A stretch of DNA of 64,000 nt from positions 496,001-560,000 of the forward strand of contig NC_013166.1 of NCBI RefSeq assembly GCF_000024085.1, given 5' to 3'. The position numbers were made by a program, and so were the translations under genes. This DNA comes from Kangiella koreensis DSM 16069. GTDB lineage: Bacteria; Pseudomonadota; Gammaproteobacteria; Enterobacterales; Kangiellaceae. Each line of letters opens with the position of its first letter. The first letter of the stretch is position 1. Below the pieces are notes generated by a model, which saw only the letters and a program-made list of their open reading frames with translations, was not told the origin of the DNA and made no database searches. This document shows, one piece after another, positions 53,951 to 62,098 of the stretch.

Positions 53951-54157
53951 ATGGACGCAATTTATTTATTGATCCCACTAACCTTAGTTTTATTAGCTAT
54001 AGCCATTGGTATCTTTTTCTGGGCGGTAAATTCCGATCAGTATTCCGACTTGGATAAAGAGGCGAGTCGCATTCTTTTTGAGGAACATAACAAAGATGAT
54101 ACCGACACTGATCAAGTTGCCAAAGAAAATGATAAACCATCAGAGAAAAAGAAATGA
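53951..54157 (+). CDS. ccoS: cbb3 assembly protein CcoS
   Basis: 68 residues: one membrane helix (YLLIPLTLVLLAIAIGIFFWAV), then NSDQYSDLDKEASRILF, the CcoS/FixS motif, and an unusually long acidic tail (EEHNKDDTDTDQVAKENDKP). CcoS is needed for a functional oxidase. It shares ATGA with the following gene. Confidence 0.93.
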   Translation: MDAIYLLIPLTLVLLAIAIGIFFWAVNSDQYSDLDKEASRILFEEHNKDDTDTDQVAKENDKPSEKKK

Positions 54158-54882
54158 TCAGTGATCAAGAACTAACCGCTTTAGTATCTGCCTTTGCCAT
54201 GGGTTTCTTAGGCTCTACTCATTGTATTGGTATGTGTGGTGGCTTAACCGTTGCACTGAATACCGGTAATGCAAAAGAAAAATCAATACGTCTTTCCTTC
54301 ACTTACCAGATATTCCGCGTTCTCAGTTACGGTATTCTCGGCGCGCTTGCAGGTGGTTTTGGTTACCTGTTTAGCAAGTGGACTAACTTCCCAGTATTAA
54401 TCGTGTTGGGTGGCATCATGCTGATCATGATGGGATTTTATCTATTAAGCTGGCAGAACTTTCTGATCTATTTTGAAAGTATCGGTCGTAAGTTGTGGAA
54501 GAAGGTTTCGCCGGTGCAAAGCCGTTTTCTACCCATCAAGAAATTTCATCAGGCTGCTGTAGTCGGTTTGCTATGGGGGTTGTTACCTTGTGGATTGGTT
54601 TACAGTGCTCTAGCTATGGCCAGTACTTCAGGAACAGCAATAGGTGGTTTCACCAGTATGGTGGCCTTTGGGCTAGGGACTTTACCAGCCATGTTCGCGG
54701 TAGGTGTGTTCAGTAATAAACTAGTCAATTTCTTCCGTAACCCAAAGGTACGTGCTGTCTTTGGTCTGTTATTCATTCTCTGGGGTAGCTTCTATATTTA
54801 TCAAGCAGTTACTAAAATCTCGAACGGACAGGGTGGCCATCAGCACCATCAGATGCAAACAGAAATAAATCATGACCACTAA
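54154..54882 (+). CDS. Sulfite exporter TauE/SafE-like membrane protein (cbb3-linked)
   Basis: 242 residues with about six membrane helices. The conserved FLGSTHCIGMCGGL has the Cys-containing motif of the DsbD_2-like group often linked to cco operons. GGMLMGFYLLSW and GLLPCGLVYSALAMAS repeat the pattern. The C-terminal GHQHHQMQTEINHDH is a His cluster that may bind Cu or another metal. It is last in the cco operon and translationally coupled to ccoS. A role in Cu handling or thiol transfer for oxidase assembly is an inference. Confidence 0.88.
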   Translation: MISDQELTALVSAFAMGFLGSTHCIGMCGGLTVALNTGNAKEKSIRLSFTYQIFRVLSYGILGALAGGFGYLFSKWTNFPVLIVLGGIMLIMMGFYLLSWQNFLIYFESIGRKLWKKVSPVQSRFLPIKKFHQAAVVGLLWGLLPCGLVYSALAMASTSGTAIGGFTSMVAFGLGTLPAMFAVGVFSNKLVNFFRNPKVRAVFGLLFILWGSFYIYQAVTKISNGQGGHQHHQMQTEINHDH

Positions 54883-54912: not shown

Positions 54913-54941
54913 TTTACACATCAGAACTATCGTTGTAGATT
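54913..54941 (+). promoter_or_regulatory. Candidate promoter of the arginine operon
   Basis: -35 TTTACA (54913-54918), 17-base spacer, -10 TAGATT (54936-54941). The start would be near 54948, giving a leader RNA of about 220 bases before argF'. I saw no good ArgR box (TGAAT-N4-ATTCA type) around it. Confidence 0.55.
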
Positions 54942-54979
54942 TGCCTGCAATGAACAACACATTTAGCAAATTTTAACCA

Positions 54980-55060
54980 ATGAAACATACTTTAGTTTTA
55001 ATCGCACAACTACGACGTCGCAGCTTTCGTATTCGGAAGGCTGGGGTCTATAGCGCGTAA
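54980..55060 (+). CDS. Arg-rich leader peptide of the arginine operon (candidate)
   Basis: A 26-codon frame, ATG to TAA: MKHTLVLIAQLRRRSFRIRK followed by AGVYSA. Five of 26 codons are Arg: CGA, CGT, CGC in a row (codons 12-14), CGT (17) and CGG (19). It precedes mutually exclusive hairpins and a terminator. An in-frame stop lies two codons before the ATG, so this start is the only one. No strong ribosome site precedes it (AAATTTTAACCA), which lowers confidence in efficient translation. It would serve as an arginine sensor, not as a functional protein. Confidence 0.7.
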   Translation: MKHTLVLIAQLRRRSFRIRKAGVYSA

Positions 55061-55110
55061 AAAAAGTATCTAACTAGATTTTGAAACCCAGCCATCGGCT
55101 GGGTTTTTTT
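55021..55110 (+). promoter_or_regulatory. Transcription attenuator with alternative hairpins
   Basis: Hairpin 1:2: CAGCTTTC (55021-55028) with GAAGGCTG (55036-55043), 8 pairs with one wobble. Antiterminator 2:3: GGCTGGG (55039-55045) with CCCAGCC (55087-55093). Terminator 3:4: AAACCCAGCC (55084-55093), loop ATC, GGCTGGGTTT (55097-55106), then T-run to 55110. Region 2 and region 4 share GGCTGGG, so structures are mutually exclusive. A ribosome stalled at Arg codons 12-14 would cover region 1 and free region 2. Confidence 0.8.
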
Positions 55111-55169: not shown

Positions 55170-56177
55170 ATGCAGCACTTTCTAACCACAGAGCATTGGT
55201 CAAAACCGGATCTGCAACAGATTCTGGACTTTGCCAAAGATCTGAAACAATCTCCAATCCAACCTTTGTTAAAAAACAAAAGTATAGCGCTATTGTTTTT
55301 TAATCCATCATTGAGAACCCGTACCAGCTTTGAAATTGGGATCGAACAACTTGGCGGCCATGCGGTGGTGTTGCAGCCGGGTAAAGATGCCTGGCCAATC
55401 GAATTTGAGTTGGGTTCAGTTATGGATGGCGAAGCTGAAGAGCATGTTAAAGAAGTCGCTCAGGTGCTTTCCAGTTATTGTGATCTTATTGCCATTAGAG
55501 CTTTCCCAAAATTCGTTGATTGGCAAAAAGACAAGCTGGATACACTGCTAAATAGCTTTGCCCAGTTTGCCAGCGTACCAGTCATTAATATGGAAACCAT
55601 CACCCATCCCTGTCAGGAGCTGGCACACATTATGACCTTGCAGGAAAAGTTGGGAGACCTGCAAGGAAAAAAATATGTGTTGACCTGGACCTATCATCCA
55701 AAGCCACTCAATACCGCAGTTGCAAATTCAGCGCTCATGATCGCTAGTAAATTTGGTATGGATGTCACTCTGCTGTGCCCGACACCTGATTATGTCTTAG
55801 ATGAACACTATATGCAGTCAGCCCAGAACAACTGCAACCAGAATCATCAGAACTTAACCGTAACGCATAATATAGAAGAGGCCTATACCGGGGCTGAGAT
55901 TGTTTATGCCAAAAGTTGGGGTGCCTTGCCATATTTCGGGCAGTGGGAAAAAGAAAAGATAATTCGTGACCAGTACAAACACTTTATTGTCGACGAGAAA
56001 AAAATGGCAATGACCAATCAAGGACTATTCAGCCACTGCTTGCCTTTGAGGCGTAATGTCAAAGCAACCGATGCCGTTATGGATGCTGATTATTGCGTTG
56101 CCATTCAGGAAGCTGAAAACCGTCTGCATGTACAAAAGTCATTAATGAATTCTTTAGTCAATCATCATTCCTCTTGA
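55170..56177 (+). CDS. argF': N-acetylornithine carbamoyltransferase
   Basis: 335 residues. It converts N-acetylornithine and carbamoyl phosphate to N-acetylcitrulline, as in Xanthomonas. Carbamoyl-phosphate motif NPSLRTRTSFE (about 45-55), then the AOTCase-specific HAVVLQPGKDAWPIEF, THPCQELAH, YVLTWTYHPKPLNTAVANSA and HCLPLRRNVKATDAV, whose Lys is the carboxylated residue in the X. campestris enzyme. Glu90 in MDGEAEEH corresponds to the specificity Glu92 of that enzyme, favouring acetyl- over succinyl-ornithine. An ordinary ornithine carbamoyltransferase lacks these segments. First gene of the operon behind the attenuator. Confidence 0.95.
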   Translation: MQHFLTTEHWSKPDLQQILDFAKDLKQSPIQPLLKNKSIALLFFNPSLRTRTSFEIGIEQLGGHAVVLQPGKDAWPIEFELGSVMDGEAEEHVKEVAQVLSSYCDLIAIRAFPKFVDWQKDKLDTLLNSFAQFASVPVINMETITHPCQELAHIMTLQEKLGDLQGKKYVLTWTYHPKPLNTAVANSALMIASKFGMDVTLLCPTPDYVLDEHYMQSAQNNCNQNHQNLTVTHNIEEAYTGAEIVYAKSWGALPYFGQWEKEKIIRDQYKHFIVDEKKMAMTNQGLFSHCLPLRRNVKATDAVMDADYCVAIQEAENRLHVQKSLMNSLVNHHSS

Positions 56178-56200: not shown

Positions 56201-57412
56201 ATGAGTCAAAAGAAAGTCGTTCTAGCATTCTCAGGTGGTTTGGATACCAGCTTTTGTGTGCCCTACTTAATGGAAAAAGGGTATGAGGTTCACACCTTAT
56301 TTGTTAACACGGGTGGTGTCAGCCGTGAAAAGTGTCATCAGATCGAAAAGCGTGCGTTGGGGTTAGGAGCGAAACAGCATTGGCAAGTCGACGCACAACA
56401 GATGTTATGGGAAGAAATTATCACGCCACTGGTGTGGGGCAATTCAAAATATCAGGGGCAGTATCCACTGCTGTGTGCTGATCGTTATCTGATCGTCAAA
56501 GAATCTATCAAACTGTGTCAGCAGCTCAACACAAACATTGTTGCTCACGGTTGCACCGGCATGGGCAATGATCAGGTGCGATTCGATATATCGATCAAGG
56601 CATTGGGTGAATACACCATTTTATCGCCAATTCGGGATATTCAGCAGCAGGTTAAAGATGTTAGACATTATGAAATTGAATATTTGCAGGAAAAAGGATT
56701 TAAAACATCAACGGAACATAAAAAATACAGCATTAATGAAAATCTGCTGGGTGTAACCATTTCCGGTTCCGAAATTGATCAGTGGCAAGAGCCGCAAGAT
56801 GATACATACGTGTTAACCAATCATTATCATGACTTCCCAGAAGAATCTCTGAAGCTAAGAATTGAGTTTAAACAAGGACAAGCAGTAGCCATTAATGGAG
56901 AGCCAAAGACAGGTGTCGAAGTTATGCAATACCTGAATAAGATACTGGGTCAGTATGGTGTAGGTAGAAGTATCTATACCGGCGACACAGTCATTGGTTT
57001 GAAAGGACGTATTGTTTTTGAAGCACCGGCACTGTTTGGTTTGCTGAAAGCGCATCAGGCCATTGAAGAGGTGGTACTGACTCAATGGCAAAACCAATTC
57101 AAACCACAGGTTGCGGATAAATGGACAGAGCTGGTTTATAAAGGCTTCTACTTTGATCCTTTGTGCAACGATTTGTATCAGTTCCTCGCCTCGACACAAC
57201 AGCACGTTAATGGTTCGGTTGAGTTGTTAGTGTATGCAGGACAGCTTCAAGTAGTTGCGGTTAACAGCCCATCACTATTAGTAAGTAAAGATGCCAGTTA
57301 CGCTCAAACTGCCAGCTGGGGAATTGAAGAGGCAGTAGGCTTTATTCAATTGTATGGCAACAGCACTGCAACTTGGGCCAAAGTTATGCAAGAGCAGGAT
57401 GGTGCTGCATGA
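56201..57412 (+). CDS. argG: Argininosuccinate synthase
   Basis: 403 residues. The ATP-pyrophosphatase signature VVLAFSGGLDTSFCVPYLM, then HGCTGMGNDQVRFDI and ENLLGVTISGSEIDQW. It condenses citrulline with aspartate. It follows argF' in the Xanthomonas-type order and overlaps the next gene by four bases (ATGA). Confidence 0.95.
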   Translation: MSQKKVVLAFSGGLDTSFCVPYLMEKGYEVHTLFVNTGGVSREKCHQIEKRALGLGAKQHWQVDAQQMLWEEIITPLVWGNSKYQGQYPLLCADRYLIVKESIKLCQQLNTNIVAHGCTGMGNDQVRFDISIKALGEYTILSPIRDIQQQVKDVRHYEIEYLQEKGFKTSTEHKKYSINENLLGVTISGSEIDQWQEPQDDTYVLTNHYHDFPEESLKLRIEFKQGQAVAINGEPKTGVEVMQYLNKILGQYGVGRSIYTGDTVIGLKGRIVFEAPALFGLLKAHQAIEEVVLTQWQNQFKPQVADKWTELVYKGFYFDPLCNDLYQFLASTQQHVNGSVELLVYAGQLQVVAVNSPSLLVSKDASYAQTASWGIEEAVGFIQLYGNSTATWAKVMQEQDGAA

Positions 57413-58512
57413 CCTCAATACTTCTAGAAAACACTCTTAAACATTTGCAAGCATTAGTAGCTTTTAACACTGGCAATCCTCCACGCCAAATTCATGAGTC
57501 TGGAATCATTGATTATTTGACTGAGCAATTAAGCGATGGACAAGTGGAGGTCATGGATTATGGCGATGGCTCTATTAATGTTTGGGCAGTAAAAGGGCAG
57601 CCTAAATATTTATTCAATTTTCATATCGACACAGTGCCAGTGGCGCAAGGATGGGAAACCGATCCTTTTGCATTAATCATAAAAGATGACAAGGCGTTTG
57701 GTTTAGGAAGTTGTGACATCAAAGGTGCCGCAGCCTGCTTTCTGGCTTGTGTTGAGCAGGGACTGAATGATTATGCGGTACTTTTTTCTTCGGATGAGGA
57801 ATATGGCAACAGCCTGTGTGTTAAATCATTTTTACAGCAACAGCATGACTATGAAGGTGTCGTAGTTGCAGAGCCAACACAGTGCAAAGCCGTTTTAGCA
57901 CATCGTGGTGTTGCTACTGCTGAGATCTTGTTCACGGCAAAAAGCGGGCACAGTTCTGAACCAAGAGCACTCACAGAAAATGCTATCCATCAAGCCACAA
58001 GCTGGATGAGTCAGGCAATTGAATGGGCTACAGGTCAGTTGCAATCAAGCTACTATAATCTGCAAGGAGCTTGTCTTAATCTTGGCAAGATCGAAGGTGG
58101 AATCAAACCTAACATTATTGCCCCTCATGTCACGTTGCAAATGGGGATCAGGCCATTGCCAGGTGATGATCCCGAGCATCTATTGCAAGAGATGGTCAGC
58201 TCAATAGACATGAGTCAACCAGTTACTGTCACGCCTAAATTTATGGCACCTTCGTTTCCTGCCACAAAGACCAGCGAACATTCAGATGAGCAACAAACGG
58301 ACAATGTTAGTCTAGCAAACAAACTGGGTTTAGAGTTGAGTGAACCGGTGAATTTCTGGACCGAAGCGGCGTTGTTTTCAGCGGCAGGTTATGCAGCAAT
58401 TGTCTATGGACCCGGTAATATTGATAAGGCTCATACTGCGAATGAATGGGTGGCAATAAGTGATCTGGAAACAGTGGTTATGAATTACTGGAGGATACTT
58501 GGCGATGACTAA
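57409..58512 (+). CDS. argE': N-acetylcitrulline deacetylase, M20 peptidase family
   Basis: 367 residues from the ATG at 57409 that overlaps the argG stop; an earlier in-frame TTG would intrude into argG. M20 zinc-peptidase motifs: FHIDTVPVAQGWETDPF (His, Asp), LGSCDIKGAAAC (bridging Asp), SSDEEYGN (catalytic Glu) and VAEPTQ. Length matches the Xanthomonas acetylcitrulline deacetylase (about 366), and the context with acetylornithine carbamoyltransferase makes citrulline release the expected step, rather than ornithine release as in ArgE. Substrate assignment rests on context. Confidence 0.9.
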   Translation: MTSILLENTLKHLQALVAFNTGNPPRQIHESGIIDYLTEQLSDGQVEVMDYGDGSINVWAVKGQPKYLFNFHIDTVPVAQGWETDPFALIIKDDKAFGLGSCDIKGAAACFLACVEQGLNDYAVLFSSDEEYGNSLCVKSFLQQQHDYEGVVVAEPTQCKAVLAHRGVATAEILFTAKSGHSSEPRALTENAIHQATSWMSQAIEWATGQLQSSYYNLQGACLNLGKIEGGIKPNIIAPHVTLQMGIRPLPGDDPEHLLQEMVSSIDMSQPVTVTPKFMAPSFPATKTSEHSDEQQTDNVSLANKLGLELSEPVNFWTEAALFSAAGYAAIVYGPGNIDKAHTANEWVAISDLETVVMNYWRILGDD

Positions 58513-59827
58513 TCACAAAGTCAAAGAGACCATTGTTCGGTTGCTTAATAACATGGGCAGTGAAAGTGAAATCCGCAAATACCTGAAACGTTTTTCCAGT
58601 AATGAAGGAATGAAGTTTGCCATCATCAAAGTGGGTGGAGCTATTTTAAAAGATGACATAGATAACCTGGTGTCATCCTTATCTTTTTTGCAGCAGGTTG
58701 GTTTGACACCCATTGTGGTGCATGGCGCTGGTCCACAACTTAATGCGCAACTGGAGCAGGAAAAAATAGAGGCTGAGTTTATTGAGGGTAAACGCGTTAC
58801 TAATTCAGAGGTTCTAAAAGTAGCGCGCAAGGTGTTTATCTCTGAGAATCATAATCTGGTGAATACTTTGAAAAATGCTGGAGTCGATGCCGCTTCTTTT
58901 TATTCTGGTATTTTTGAATGTGAACTGGAAAATGAAACCTTGGGTCTGGTTGGAACAATCCAGTCCGTGCATGATCATGACTTGATTGAAAGTGTTAGGA
59001 ATGGCGCCATTCCGGTAGTCAGTCCTTTGGGTGAAACGGAGCAAGGCCAGATTGTTAACATTAACGCAGATACTGCTACCCTTGCATTAGCAAAGGCCAT
59101 TGAGCCCTATAAGGTGGTCTTTTTGACGGGAACAGGTGGCATACTGGGTGCAGATGAAACACTGATTCCAGCCATTAGTTTACAAAATGACTACGACTAT
59201 CTGATGCAACAGAGCTGGCTGCATTCGGGAATGAAATTAAAGCTGCAACAGATTTACGAGCTATTAAATCATGTGTCAAACGCAACTTCGGTTTCAATTA
59301 CCAAACCCAGCCTTGTCGCTAAAGAATTGTTTACCGACCGTGGCTCAGGAACTTTGGTCAATAAGGGCGAAAAGATACACCAGTTTAATGACTGGCAACA
59401 TCTTGCTCAAGATAAATTAACCGGTTTAATTGAGTCATCTTTTGGGCATCATTTACAGCGACATTATTTTGAACAAACACAGCTGCACAGAGCTTATGTG
59501 ACAGAGTGCTATAGAGCCGCAACTATTGTCACCAATGATTATGCCGTTCCTTATCTGGATAAATTTGTGGTGGAAGACTCTGCTAAAGGTGAGGGGTTAG
59601 GCACCGCCGTCTGGAATACGATGCTACACGACAATCCACAGTTATTCTGGCGTGCTTCTTCTCACAATCCGATCAATAAATTTTATTTCTCAATGGCGGA
59701 TGGATTTATTAGAGGAAATGAGTGGAATGTCTTTTGGCGAGGCGTTGATGATTTCTCATTAATTCAATCCTGTGTGCAACAGGCAATAAACAGACCCCGT
59801 ACCGTTAATTCCGGAGAATTGTCATGA
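58505..59827 (+). CDS. argB: Bifunctional N-acetylglutamate kinase/synthase fusion
   Basis: 440 residues from the ATG at 58505 (overlapping the argE' stop). The N-terminal amino-acid kinase domain (about 35-285) has FAIIKVGGAILKDD, VVHGAGPQLNAQL, VNINADTATLALA and FLTGTGGIL. A C-terminal GNAT domain (about 300-435, RAATIVTNDYAVPYLDKFVV, AKGEGLGTAVWNTML, FYFSMADGFIRGNEWNVFW) supplies N-acetylglutamate synthase. This matches the vertebrate-like NAGS/K of Xanthomonas and differs from E. coli ArgA, whose GNAT is of another subtype. It does the first two steps of the pathway and is probably feedback-controlled by arginine. It overlaps argC (ATGA). Confidence 0.93.
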   Translation: MTNHKVKETIVRLLNNMGSESEIRKYLKRFSSNEGMKFAIIKVGGAILKDDIDNLVSSLSFLQQVGLTPIVVHGAGPQLNAQLEQEKIEAEFIEGKRVTNSEVLKVARKVFISENHNLVNTLKNAGVDAASFYSGIFECELENETLGLVGTIQSVHDHDLIESVRNGAIPVVSPLGETEQGQIVNINADTATLALAKAIEPYKVVFLTGTGGILGADETLIPAISLQNDYDYLMQQSWLHSGMKLKLQQIYELLNHVSNATSVSITKPSLVAKELFTDRGSGTLVNKGEKIHQFNDWQHLAQDKLTGLIESSFGHHLQRHYFEQTQLHRAYVTECYRAATIVTNDYAVPYLDKFVVEDSAKGEGLGTAVWNTMLHDNPQLFWRASSHNPINKFYFSMADGFIRGNEWNVFWRGVDDFSLIQSCVQQAINRPRTVNSGELS

Positions 59828-60774
59828 GCCATTCAAACAGCCAACCAATCAGCGTTGCCCTGATTGGTGCCAGAGGTTATGTCGGCGAAGAATTAATCAG
59901 ACTACTAAACCAGCATCCTGTTTTTGAATTAGCGCTTGCGGTTTCACGCAGTAAGCAGGGGCAGGCGGTTAATGGATATAGCAACAATACTCTCTACTAT
60001 CAGGATGCTACACCCGCACAGGTGGCCGAAGGGAATTATGATTTGATATTTCTAGCGCTGCCTAATGGCCTTGCTCAATCCTATGTTACAGAAATTGATA
60101 GATTGTCCAGTCAGTCGGTGATTGTTGACCTAAGCGCAGACTATCGCTTCGACAAGAGCTGGTATTACAGCTTACCTGAGCTGAGTCAAACAACAGATCA
60201 AATACGGATCAGTAATCCCGGTTGTTATGCTACTGCAATGCAGCTGTCTTTGGCACCATTAACTCCAGTTATTGATGGGGCAGCGCACTGTTTTGGAGTG
60301 TCCGGTTACAGTGGCGCAGGAACCAACCCGAGTGATAAGAACAATCTTGAACTACTAAAAGATAACCTAATTCCCTATCAACTGTCAGAGCATCTTCATG
60401 AAAAAGAAGTGAGTCATCATTTAGATACAGACGTGAAGTTTACGCCTCACGTAGCCAGTTTCTTTCGCGGCATTTCCATGACTACTCATATTAGCTTGCA
60501 GCAGCCAATGACTCTTGAAGAAGTGATTGAGAAGTTTAAAAAGCTCTACCAGCATCATCCTTTGATTGAAGTGCGCGAGACTATTCCATTGGTAAAAGAT
60601 ATTCAGGGTAAGGTCGGCGCGATTGTTGGAGGTTTCAAGCTCGATAAAAGTGGCTGTCACTTAGTGGTGTGCTGTGCTCTCGATAACCTGCTCAAAGGTG
60701 CTGCGGTTCAGGCGCTACAAAATGCCAATCAAGCATTCAATCTTAATTCTTTAGAGGCAATCAATTATGACTAA
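59824..60774 (+). CDS. argC: N-acetyl-gamma-glutamyl-phosphate reductase
   Basis: 316 residues. NADP-binding ALIGARGYVGEELIRLL (about 11-27), catalytic Cys in ISNPGCYATAM, VSGYSGAGTNPSDKN and the late FTPHVASFFRGISMT with the catalytic His. It makes acetylglutamate semialdehyde. The shared ATGA with argB and the 8-base overlap with argH show tight coupling. The enzyme is of the longer bacterial type related to Xanthomonas ArgC. Confidence 0.94.
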   Translation: MSHSNSQPISVALIGARGYVGEELIRLLNQHPVFELALAVSRSKQGQAVNGYSNNTLYYQDATPAQVAEGNYDLIFLALPNGLAQSYVTEIDRLSSQSVIVDLSADYRFDKSWYYSLPELSQTTDQIRISNPGCYATAMQLSLAPLTPVIDGAAHCFGVSGYSGAGTNPSDKNNLELLKDNLIPYQLSEHLHEKEVSHHLDTDVKFTPHVASFFRGISMTTHISLQQPMTLEEVIEKFKKLYQHHPLIEVRETIPLVKDIQGKVGAIVGGFKLDKSGCHLVVCCALDNLLKGAAVQALQNANQAFNLNSLEAINYD

Positions 60775-62098
60775 GCCACCCATTTCAAAAAAAGTACTGT
60801 CAGACAAATTATGGTCAACAGTTCAGAGCAGCGACAAGACAGCCATTCAAAAAAAGGTAGAACAGTTCATGTCCGGCGAGGATGTGCTGCTTGATCAGCA
60901 TCTATTTGCATTTGATATTCAGGCCAGCAAAGTTCATGCACAAGGATTGCAACGTATTGATATCTTATCTCACGCTGAGCTTGAGCAAATCACAGTCAGT
61001 TTGGATGACTTGCTATATCAGTTCAAAAAGGGGCTGTTTGTTTTGGACCAGTCATTCGAAGATGGCCATTCTGCCATCGAATATTTTTTAACAGAGCAGC
61101 TAGGTGACCTAGGAAAGAAAATTCACACGGGACGTAGTCGTAATGATCAGGTGGCCGTTGCAACCCGGTTGTATTGTAAGCAGGCTTTGCTGGATCTAAA
61201 GCAAATCAATGTGCAGATTGCGCAAGTCTGTTTAACCCAGGCTGAGCAGCACAAAGATAGCATCATGCCGGGCTATACTCACATTCAAAGGGCGGTGGTA
61301 TCCAGCTGGGGCTTATGGTTTGCCAGCTTTGCTGAGTCGTTTTGCGATAACTCGCAACTGGCACAACAGACGCTCGACTGGATTGATGCAAACCCGTTAG
61401 GCACTGCCGCGGGTTATGGTGTGAATCTGGAGCTTGATCGGGATTTCACGACTGAAGCTTTGGGCTTTGCCCGGATGCAGGTTAACCCGATGTATGTGCA
61501 AAACAGTCGCGGCAAATTTGAGCTACAGGTTTTAATGGCCTTTAAACAGGCCATGCTGGATATCCGGCGTTTGGCGTGGGATCTGAGCCTGTTTACCAGT
61601 GCTGAGTTTAATCTGGTGAAATTACCCGACCTGTTTAGTACCGGCTCATCCATTATGCCCAACAAACGTAACCCCGATACGGTGGAGTTGATGCGAGCGC
61701 ACTATGCAAAGCTAGTCGGAGTTTACAATGAAATTGAGTCATTATTGTCATTGCCCAGCGGCTATCAGCGTGATTTGCAAAATACTAAGGCACCATTAAT
61801 CAATGGTATAACTGAATCATTGTTATGTCTCGCATTAGTGCCTGAACTGCTGTCAGGTGTTGATATTTGTCATGCCAATTGTGAAAAGGCGATCGAACCA
61901 GCCATGTTTGCTACCGATAAGGCGATTGAGCTGGCTCGTGAAGGAGTACCGTTCAGACAAGCCTACCAACAGTTAAAAGACAATTATCAAGATCTGGCCC
62001 AAAGGTCACCGCTTCAAGCCCTGCGCGATCGGGTTTCGCCAGGTGCCTGCGCTAACTTAAAGTTATCCGAAATGGCCGATCGATTAGAAAATGTGTAA
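60767..62098 (+). CDS. argH: Argininosuccinate lyase
   Basis: 443 residues, fumarase/aspartase superfamily. HSAIEYFLTEQLGDLGKKIHTGRSRNDQVAV (His, Arg) and the signature GSSIMPNKRNPDTVELMR containing the catalytic Ser loop, with GYTHIQRAVVSSWGLWF. It splits argininosuccinate into arginine and fumarate. It is the last operon gene; no convincing terminator appears in the 56 bases before the hemN promoter. Confidence 0.95.
   Translation: MTKPPISKKVLSDKLWSTVQSSDKTAIQKKVEQFMSGEDVLLDQHLFAFDIQASKVHAQGLQRIDILSHAELEQITVSLDDLLYQFKKGLFVLDQSFEDGHSAIEYFLTEQLGDLGKKIHTGRSRNDQVAVATRLYCKQALLDLKQINVQIAQVCLTQAEQHKDSIMPGYTHIQRAVVSSWGLWFASFAESFCDNSQLAQQTLDWIDANPLGTAAGYGVNLELDRDFTTEALGFARMQVNPMYVQNSRGKFELQVLMAFKQAMLDIRRLAWDLSLFTSAEFNLVKLPDLFSTGSSIMPNKRNPDTVELMRAHYAKLVGVYNEIESLLSLPSGYQRDLQNTKAPLINGITESLLCLALVPELLSGVDICHANCEKAIEPAMFATDKAIELAREGVPFRQAYQQLKDNYQDLAQRSPLQALRDRVSPGACANLKLSEMADRLENV

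Follow-up and report, generated by a model that had tools for sequence, protein, structure and literature searches.

A predicted arginine leader-peptide attenuator in front of the arg operon of Kangiella koreensis, with related leaders in other bacteria

The arg operon of the marine bacterium Kangiella koreensis is preceded by a short leader with the layout of an amino-acid attenuator, and its sequence makes it very likely that the operon is controlled by ribosome-mediated transcription attenuation in response to the supply of charged tRNA-Arg. A recognisably related switch appears to front the same genes in many bacteria without the usual arginine repressor. The first-pass annotation had proposed an arginine leader-peptide attenuator at this site. 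This reading is supported by the anatomy of the leader, its conservation, matching alleles of its pairing regions and the spacing between Arg codons and region 2, which together point to a probable response to arginine. Throughout, the window is the whole stretch of DNA that was analysed, 64,000 nucleotides at positions 496001-560000 of a genome of 2,852,073 bases in one contig.

Anatomy and folding of the leader

Six genes follow the leader in the order argF'-argG-argE-argB-argC-argH. The features of the locus are, in window coordinates:

54913..54941, + strand: predicted promoter TTTACA-17-TAGATT, a consensus match (9/12); also present in K. aquimarina (L002)
54950..54976, + strand: 8-codon mini-ORF MNNTFSKF, its stop 3 nt before the leader ATG
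54980..55060, + strand: leader peptide ORF of 26 codons, MKHTLVLIAQLRRRSFRIRKAGVYSA; ATG at 54980, stop at 55058-55060
55013..55021, + strand: proposed regulatory Arg codons CGA CGT CGC, from relatives' sequences
55021..55028, + strand: region 1, from folding
55036..55045, + strand: region 2, GAAGGCTGGG, its GGCTGGG part pairing with region 3; from folding and relatives
55087..55093, + strand: region 3, CCCAGCC; from folding and relatives
55097..55110, + strand: region 4 (GGCTGGG) and T-run (55104-55110), the predicted intrinsic terminator
55170..56177, + strand: argF', N-acetylornithine carbamoyltransferase (NF003384)
56201..57412, + strand: argG, argininosuccinate synthase (NF003385)
57373..58512, + strand: argE-type acetylornithine deacetylase (NF006439), start codon as given by the ORF finder
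58499..59827, + strand: argB-type acetylglutamate kinase (NF003387)
59824..60774, + strand: argC, N-acetyl-gamma-glutamyl-phosphate reductase (TIGR01850)
60767..62098, + strand: argH, argininosuccinate lyase (TIGR00838)

The first-pass annotation had described a 26-codon frame with five Arg codons, three of them consecutive, followed by three mutually exclusive hairpins and a terminator with a T-run before argF', and all of these elements lie where it had placed them. Arg codons occupy positions 12, 13, 14, 17 and 19 (CGA CGT CGC, CGT and CGG), and the T-run ends upstream of the argF' ATG at 55170. Folding gave stem 1:2 (55021-55028 with 55036-55043) an energy of -10.0 kcal/mol, stem 2:3 (55039-55045 with 55087-55093) a hairpin of -14.6 kcal/mol and stem 3:4 (55084-55093 with 55097-55106) -15.6 kcal/mol. 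Comparing these pairings, as had been proposed, favours 1:2 plus 3:4, which at -33.5 kcal/mol lies about 10 kcal/mol below the 2:3 state (-23.9 kcal/mol, both over 55016-55110), so termination should be the default. The claim that region 2 is repeated as region 4 also proved exact, GGCTGGG being identical in the two.

Compared with its shuffles, the whole leader folds only moderately better (z -2.19; 5/200 shuffles at least as good). A search of both window strands for a region-2/3/4 repeat of a 6-mer or longer followed by a T-run returned a single occurrence, the arg leader, and the count was zero in 40 order-1 Markov shuffles of the window's + strand. The leader terminator was not among the calls of a generic terminator scan of the window, we think because the rule of that scan extends the stem into the T-run. 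In Rfam, no family matched the window above its cut-off, the best leader family being Phe_leader at 25.2 bits against a cut-off of 55.

The leader in relatives

Of 210 argF' loci found, 80 were kept; one of them, with 92 bases upstream (L001), was dropped, leaving 79 assessable. An Arg-rich leader ORF precedes argF' in 71 of these: 61 leaders of a Xanthomonadales type, seven in Kangiella (L002-L008), one in a Kangiellaceae metagenome-assembled genome (MAG; L041) and two in MAGs labelled Chromatiales (L064 and L031). No such leader was found at the other eight assessable loci (L013, L017, L037, L047, L048, L056, L068 and L069), five of which are from Parvularculaceae. All 71 leaders tested have an intrinsic terminator upstream of argF'. 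The window's argF' is 95-96% identical to those of K. aquimarina and a Kangiella MAG, and the run CGA-CGT/CGC-CGC is common to the window, the seven Kangiella relatives with sufficient upstream sequence (L002-L008) and L123. Further arg leaders were identified at L089, L090, L127-L134, L140 and L141, and all five argF' genomes in the window's order (the window and L123-L126) carry one. The leader of L141, IRRLRRPRTGNRAG, looks intermediate between the Xanthomonadales type and the type with an Arg run. Conservation in relatives, on which the first-pass annotation had staked its reading, was thus found: Arg codons and alternative pairings are kept in Kangiella, and variant forms occur far beyond it.

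A covariance model built from Xanthomonadales-type leaders (R1) strongly matches held-out leaders of that type and in Kangiella mostly the terminator alone; with many terminator-like matches in the K. koreensis genome, it was rejected as evidence for the window. Class-wide, R1 matched in 5/274 genomes. Two of these matches are arg leaders, and those at L091-L093 were read and are not. Among eight weaker matches read in the Xanthomonas-containing order, L140 and L141 are arg leaders and L135-L139 and L142 are not. Acquisition of the Kangiella operon from Xanthomonadales is not supported, as the argF' tree (midpoint root) has no such nesting. Two oddities of labelling were seen. The argF' and leader of L049, on a contig labelled as a Rhizobium MAG, are almost identical to those of Arenimonas (L051, L055), and the contig is probably mis-binned; L013 and L017, on MAG contigs labelled planctomycete and alphaproteobacterium, have argF' genes about 70% identical and no leader.

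The pairing regions vary together. Across 71 leaders (window included, L031 excluded), regions 2, 3 and 4 match at their variable base in 63, as C/G/C in 33 and T/A/T in 30. The other eight comprise two without the region 2 motif (L029 and L038) and six with mixed alleles; four of these six retain G-U pairs, and in the remaining two, L033 and L043, stem 2:3 contains a C:A mismatch. In L030 the region 2 motif that was counted lies after the stop and may be a chance match. A third allele, GTCGGG/CCCGAC/GTCGGG, is changed in all three regions of L126. We counted pairs on 21 of the 61 Xanthomonadales-type leaders, picked by terminator loop length. In these, 2:3 is paired in 98.6% of cells and 3:4 in 100%, versus at most 55.8% and 62.5%, respectively, in slid controls. 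In the same 21 sequences, the covariation score and percentage paired exceed 500/500 shuffles, and measures that count pairs or pair types show no excess over shuffles. In 2:3 a single pair changes on both sides, and in 3:4 two pairs do. Mapped onto the argF' tree (79 rows), region 2 requires 7 allele changes, region 3 requires 6 and region 4 requires 8; for region 3, branches with good support force only three. Sign tests that used independent pairs had too few of them to reach significance. The covariation is consistent, but few independent events lie behind it.

The distance between Arg codons and region 2 is tightly bounded, at 18-24 nt from the core Arg codon in 68/69 leaders. In the Xanthomonadales type, counted from the Arg codon at position 7 of the conserved core described below, it is 18-24 nt in 58/59 leaders and 21 nt in 44 of them; from the third Arg codon of the run, it is 18 or 21 nt in 10/10 run-type leaders. 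The stop codon is more variable. It directly follows region 2 in 49/59 Xanthomonadales-type leaders, lies 9-27 nt past the start of region 2 in the Kangiella leaders and precedes region 2 in L064. In four of the Kangiella leaders the stop is at the far end of the 9-27 nt range, and a ribosome positioned there would leave region 2 unmasked. The conserved quantity is the distance from the stall site to region 2. As a ribosome shields about 12 nt downstream of the codon in its A site, region 2, 18-24 nt away, would stay free.

These data suggest a model in which transcription would start near 54948 and the leader ORF would be translated behind RNA polymerase. With ample arginine, the ribosome would pass the Arg codons, region 2 would be tied up in 1:2 or covered by the ribosome, and 3:4 would form and end transcription at 55104-55110. 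Under a shortage of charged tRNA-Arg, the ribosome would stall with an Arg codon of 55013-55021 in the A site and cover region 1. Region 2, beginning 20-27 nt after the start of the Arg codons, would be left free, 2:3 would form and the operon would be transcribed.

The hairpin might instead be nothing more than the terminator of the upstream gene (54154-54882), behind which it lies by about 200 nt on the same strand, with the Arg-rich frame a chance ORF. We regard this as very improbable: region 2 repeats region 4, an Arg-rich ORF is found before argF' across several families, and in Xanthomonas the homologous leader corresponds to a transcript with its own mapped 5' end.

Translation of the leader, its peptide and sRNA Xoo5

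That transcript is sRNA Xoo5. The Rfam family Xoo5 (RF02242) matches the Xanthomonas massiliensis leader (L052:2747-2870) with 97.3 bits at a cut-off of 50, and the match begins 2 nt before the leader AUG. The cut-off is passed by 16/24 other loci (15/20 chosen from those at hand and 1/4 in another set), and every Xoo5-matching locus that was read lies upstream of argF'. The window leader has no Xoo5 match up to E 10, let alone one at the gathering cut-off. The 5' end of Xoo5 was mapped by RACE, and the RNA has a length of 124 nt (PMC3039613). Because both lengths are 124, we take position 1 of the Rfam model to correspond to this RACE end. On this match, the homologous leader in Xanthomonas is the mapped transcript. 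In L052 the full terminated RNA is predicted to be 157 nt, and the cloned Xoo5 stops short of the predicted terminator at its 3' end, possibly through trimming or processing. Xoo5 and the arg leader thus share a locus in Xanthomonadaceae and differ in that RF02242 is filed as an sRNA, has a model that stops before the terminator and shows another consensus fold. With a model that opens 2 nt ahead of the leader AUG and leaves out the attenuator's terminator, RF02242 probably needs revision in Rfam, both in type and in extent.

In the available part of its source paper, Xoo5 is given no function (PMC3039613). It appears there as a discrete RNA, with Northern bands of about 130 and about 100 nt, both present in early growth and only the shorter one later (PMC3039613), which would suit a small RNA acting in trans, as which it was first described. 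However, its level is unchanged in an hfq mutant (PMC3039613), the matching loci read are all upstream of argF', and what is conserved is an ORF with alternative pairings. That the leader RNA is primarily a trans-acting small RNA therefore seems to us highly doubtful, although it may have a secondary role in trans.

For the window leader, the first-pass annotation had named the lack of an obvious ribosome site as its weak point, and this objection stands: there is no Shine-Dalgarno sequence at the leader ATG, where the anti-Shine-Dalgarno duplex has an energy of +1.3 kcal/mol versus -4.0 kcal/mol for argF'. From the end of the predicted -10 box it is 38 nt to the leader ATG and 8 nt to the mini-ORF ATG. 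Possibly, and this is only an idea, the mini-ORF offers a leaderless start that feeds re-initiation and so offsets the missing ribosome site; the idea is weakened by K. aquimarina, where the mini-ORF ATG reads CTG. There the mini-ORF frame terminates at a TGA overlapping the ATG of the leader. In the Xanthomonadales type, the -10 box, taken as the best sigma-70-like consensus match in related sequences without a shuffled control and with the leader ATG picked automatically, ends 6-13 nt before the leader ATG in 38/61 loci, 20-27 nt before it in 16 (mostly Rhodanobacteraceae) and elsewhere in seven. In L033 and L053 the leader start is probably misassigned. The 6-13 nt class predicts a leaderless or near-leaderless mRNA, in agreement with the 5' end of Xoo5.

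The 61 Xanthomonadales-type leaders share a 13-residue core, A-x-x-A-[AST]-G-M-T-S-R-A-R-R at codons -5 to 7, with a pN/pS (uncorrected proportions over all pairs) of 0.20, and of 0.225 for the part before the Arg codons, whereas its two flanks in the leader have 1.13 and 1.17. The core value is close to that of a 100-codon argF' block (0.21; 50 loci). None of the 61 leaders departs from A(-2), G(0) or T(2), and each of these residues is encoded by four different codons. Codon 7 is CGA in 60/61, whereas CGA makes up 1.65% of Arg codons in argF' of those loci, which suggests an additional constraint at the level of codons. Purifying selection on the core implies that Xanthomonadales-type leaders are translated. 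The core was not seen in run-type leaders, the window's included, and the Arg run alone is shared. NCBIfam and Pfam have no model for the four leader peptides tested.

The low pN/pS of the core beside its flanks and its three invariant residues, each spelled by four codons, could also be taken to mean that the peptide itself is the sensor, arresting the ribosome on free arginine or a pathway metabolite in the way SpeFL responds to ornithine, with arginine needed as residues and not as codons. We consider this improbable for the window, as what its leader has in common with the other run-type leaders is the Arg run and not the core, and as codon 7 is held at CGA though this codon is rare in argF'. 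Attenuation by tRNA-Arg charging remains the preferred reading. Arg codons suffice for a starvation sensor and the residues before them are not needed, so a contribution of the nascent chain is a real possibility in the Xanthomonadales-type clade. We tentatively consider, as a minority view, that the Xanthomonadales leader may be a hybrid sensor in which a conserved nascent chain and tRNA-Arg charging jointly decide termination, the Kangiella Arg-run form being a simpler version. In many species that chain would come from a near-leaderless mRNA, and it would tune or trigger stalling at the near-invariant CGA. The sharply bounded core makes nascent-chain help in starvation attenuators directly testable.

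Among the branched-chain genes of Xanthomonadaceae, ilvC (L160, L162, L167, L169 and L171) has an upstream leader ORF with a Leu/Val/Ile run, for example SILVLVLITQPTGAGR, followed by a GC-rich hairpin and a T-run; this is apparently an ordinary branched-chain attenuator. In these five leaders, one family drawn from 12 loci and compared by eye, only the Leu-Val-Ile run and the stretch following it are kept, with no counterpart of the sharply bounded core.

ArgR and known systems

The arginine regulator described for Proteobacteria is ArgR (PMC5343134), and the first-pass annotation had expected ArgR repression as the standard. This expectation fails in K. koreensis, whose genome has no match to ArgR (PF01316), while 9/14 control genomes were positive; the attenuator would stand in for the missing repressor. 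In the window's order, 42/59 genomes have ArgR, 5/59 have argF' and 12/59 have neither. ArgR was not found in any of the five argF' genomes, all of which have the leader. Two of three other genomes of the window's genus (G378 and G402), which are among these 12, have neither argF' (at E 1e-60) nor ArgR, so lack of ArgR does not require a leader switch. We take the order of genome G012 to be that of Xanthomonas, because its leaders match Xoo5. There, 38/101 genomes have a leader match at E <= 1e-6, ten of them read as sequence; ArgR was found in 8/101 and in none of the 38. Class-wide, only 24/274 evenly drawn genomes have ArgR. As its lack is this common, the association between leader and missing ArgR is not proof of replacement. 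If the reading is correct, it offers an explanation of how some ArgR-less Gammaproteobacteria regulate arginine synthesis, connects an RNA switch with genomes that lack ArgR and suggests what sRNA Xoo5 probably does.

T-boxes are the only RNA-based control of arginine synthesis mentioned in the accessible text of PMC1262725. The available portion of PMC1183508 contains no case of an arginine attenuator, and arginine is absent from those of PMC2965389 and PMC10219788. Titles and abstract openings in the open-licence full-text literature, a scope that mostly leaves out subscription papers, yielded no arginine attenuator of an arg operon. The proteobacterial attenuators surveyed by Vitreschak and colleagues in 2004 reportedly include no arginine case.

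The His, Trp, Leu, Thr and Phe attenuators, represented in Rfam by Phe_leader, Leu_leader and other families, combine a run of codons for the end product, mutually exclusive pairings 1:2, 2:3 and 3:4, a region 2 that equals region 4 and a terminator before the operon. The window leader has these anatomical features in common with the proteobacterial examples and is read as sensing arginine. Arginine T-boxes of Firmicutes likewise place arginine genes under RNA-level control, and T-boxes bind tRNA directly, without a leader peptide. The SpeFL nascent peptide arrests the ribosome in response to ornithine. Its gene, orf34 in the speF leader, is a gammaproteobacterial leader ORF in which consecutive Arg codons mediate a response to arginine; unlike the leader described here, which precedes an arg biosynthetic operon, it acts on ornithine decarboxylase, by way of Rho-dependent termination, RNase G and translation (PMC6386406).
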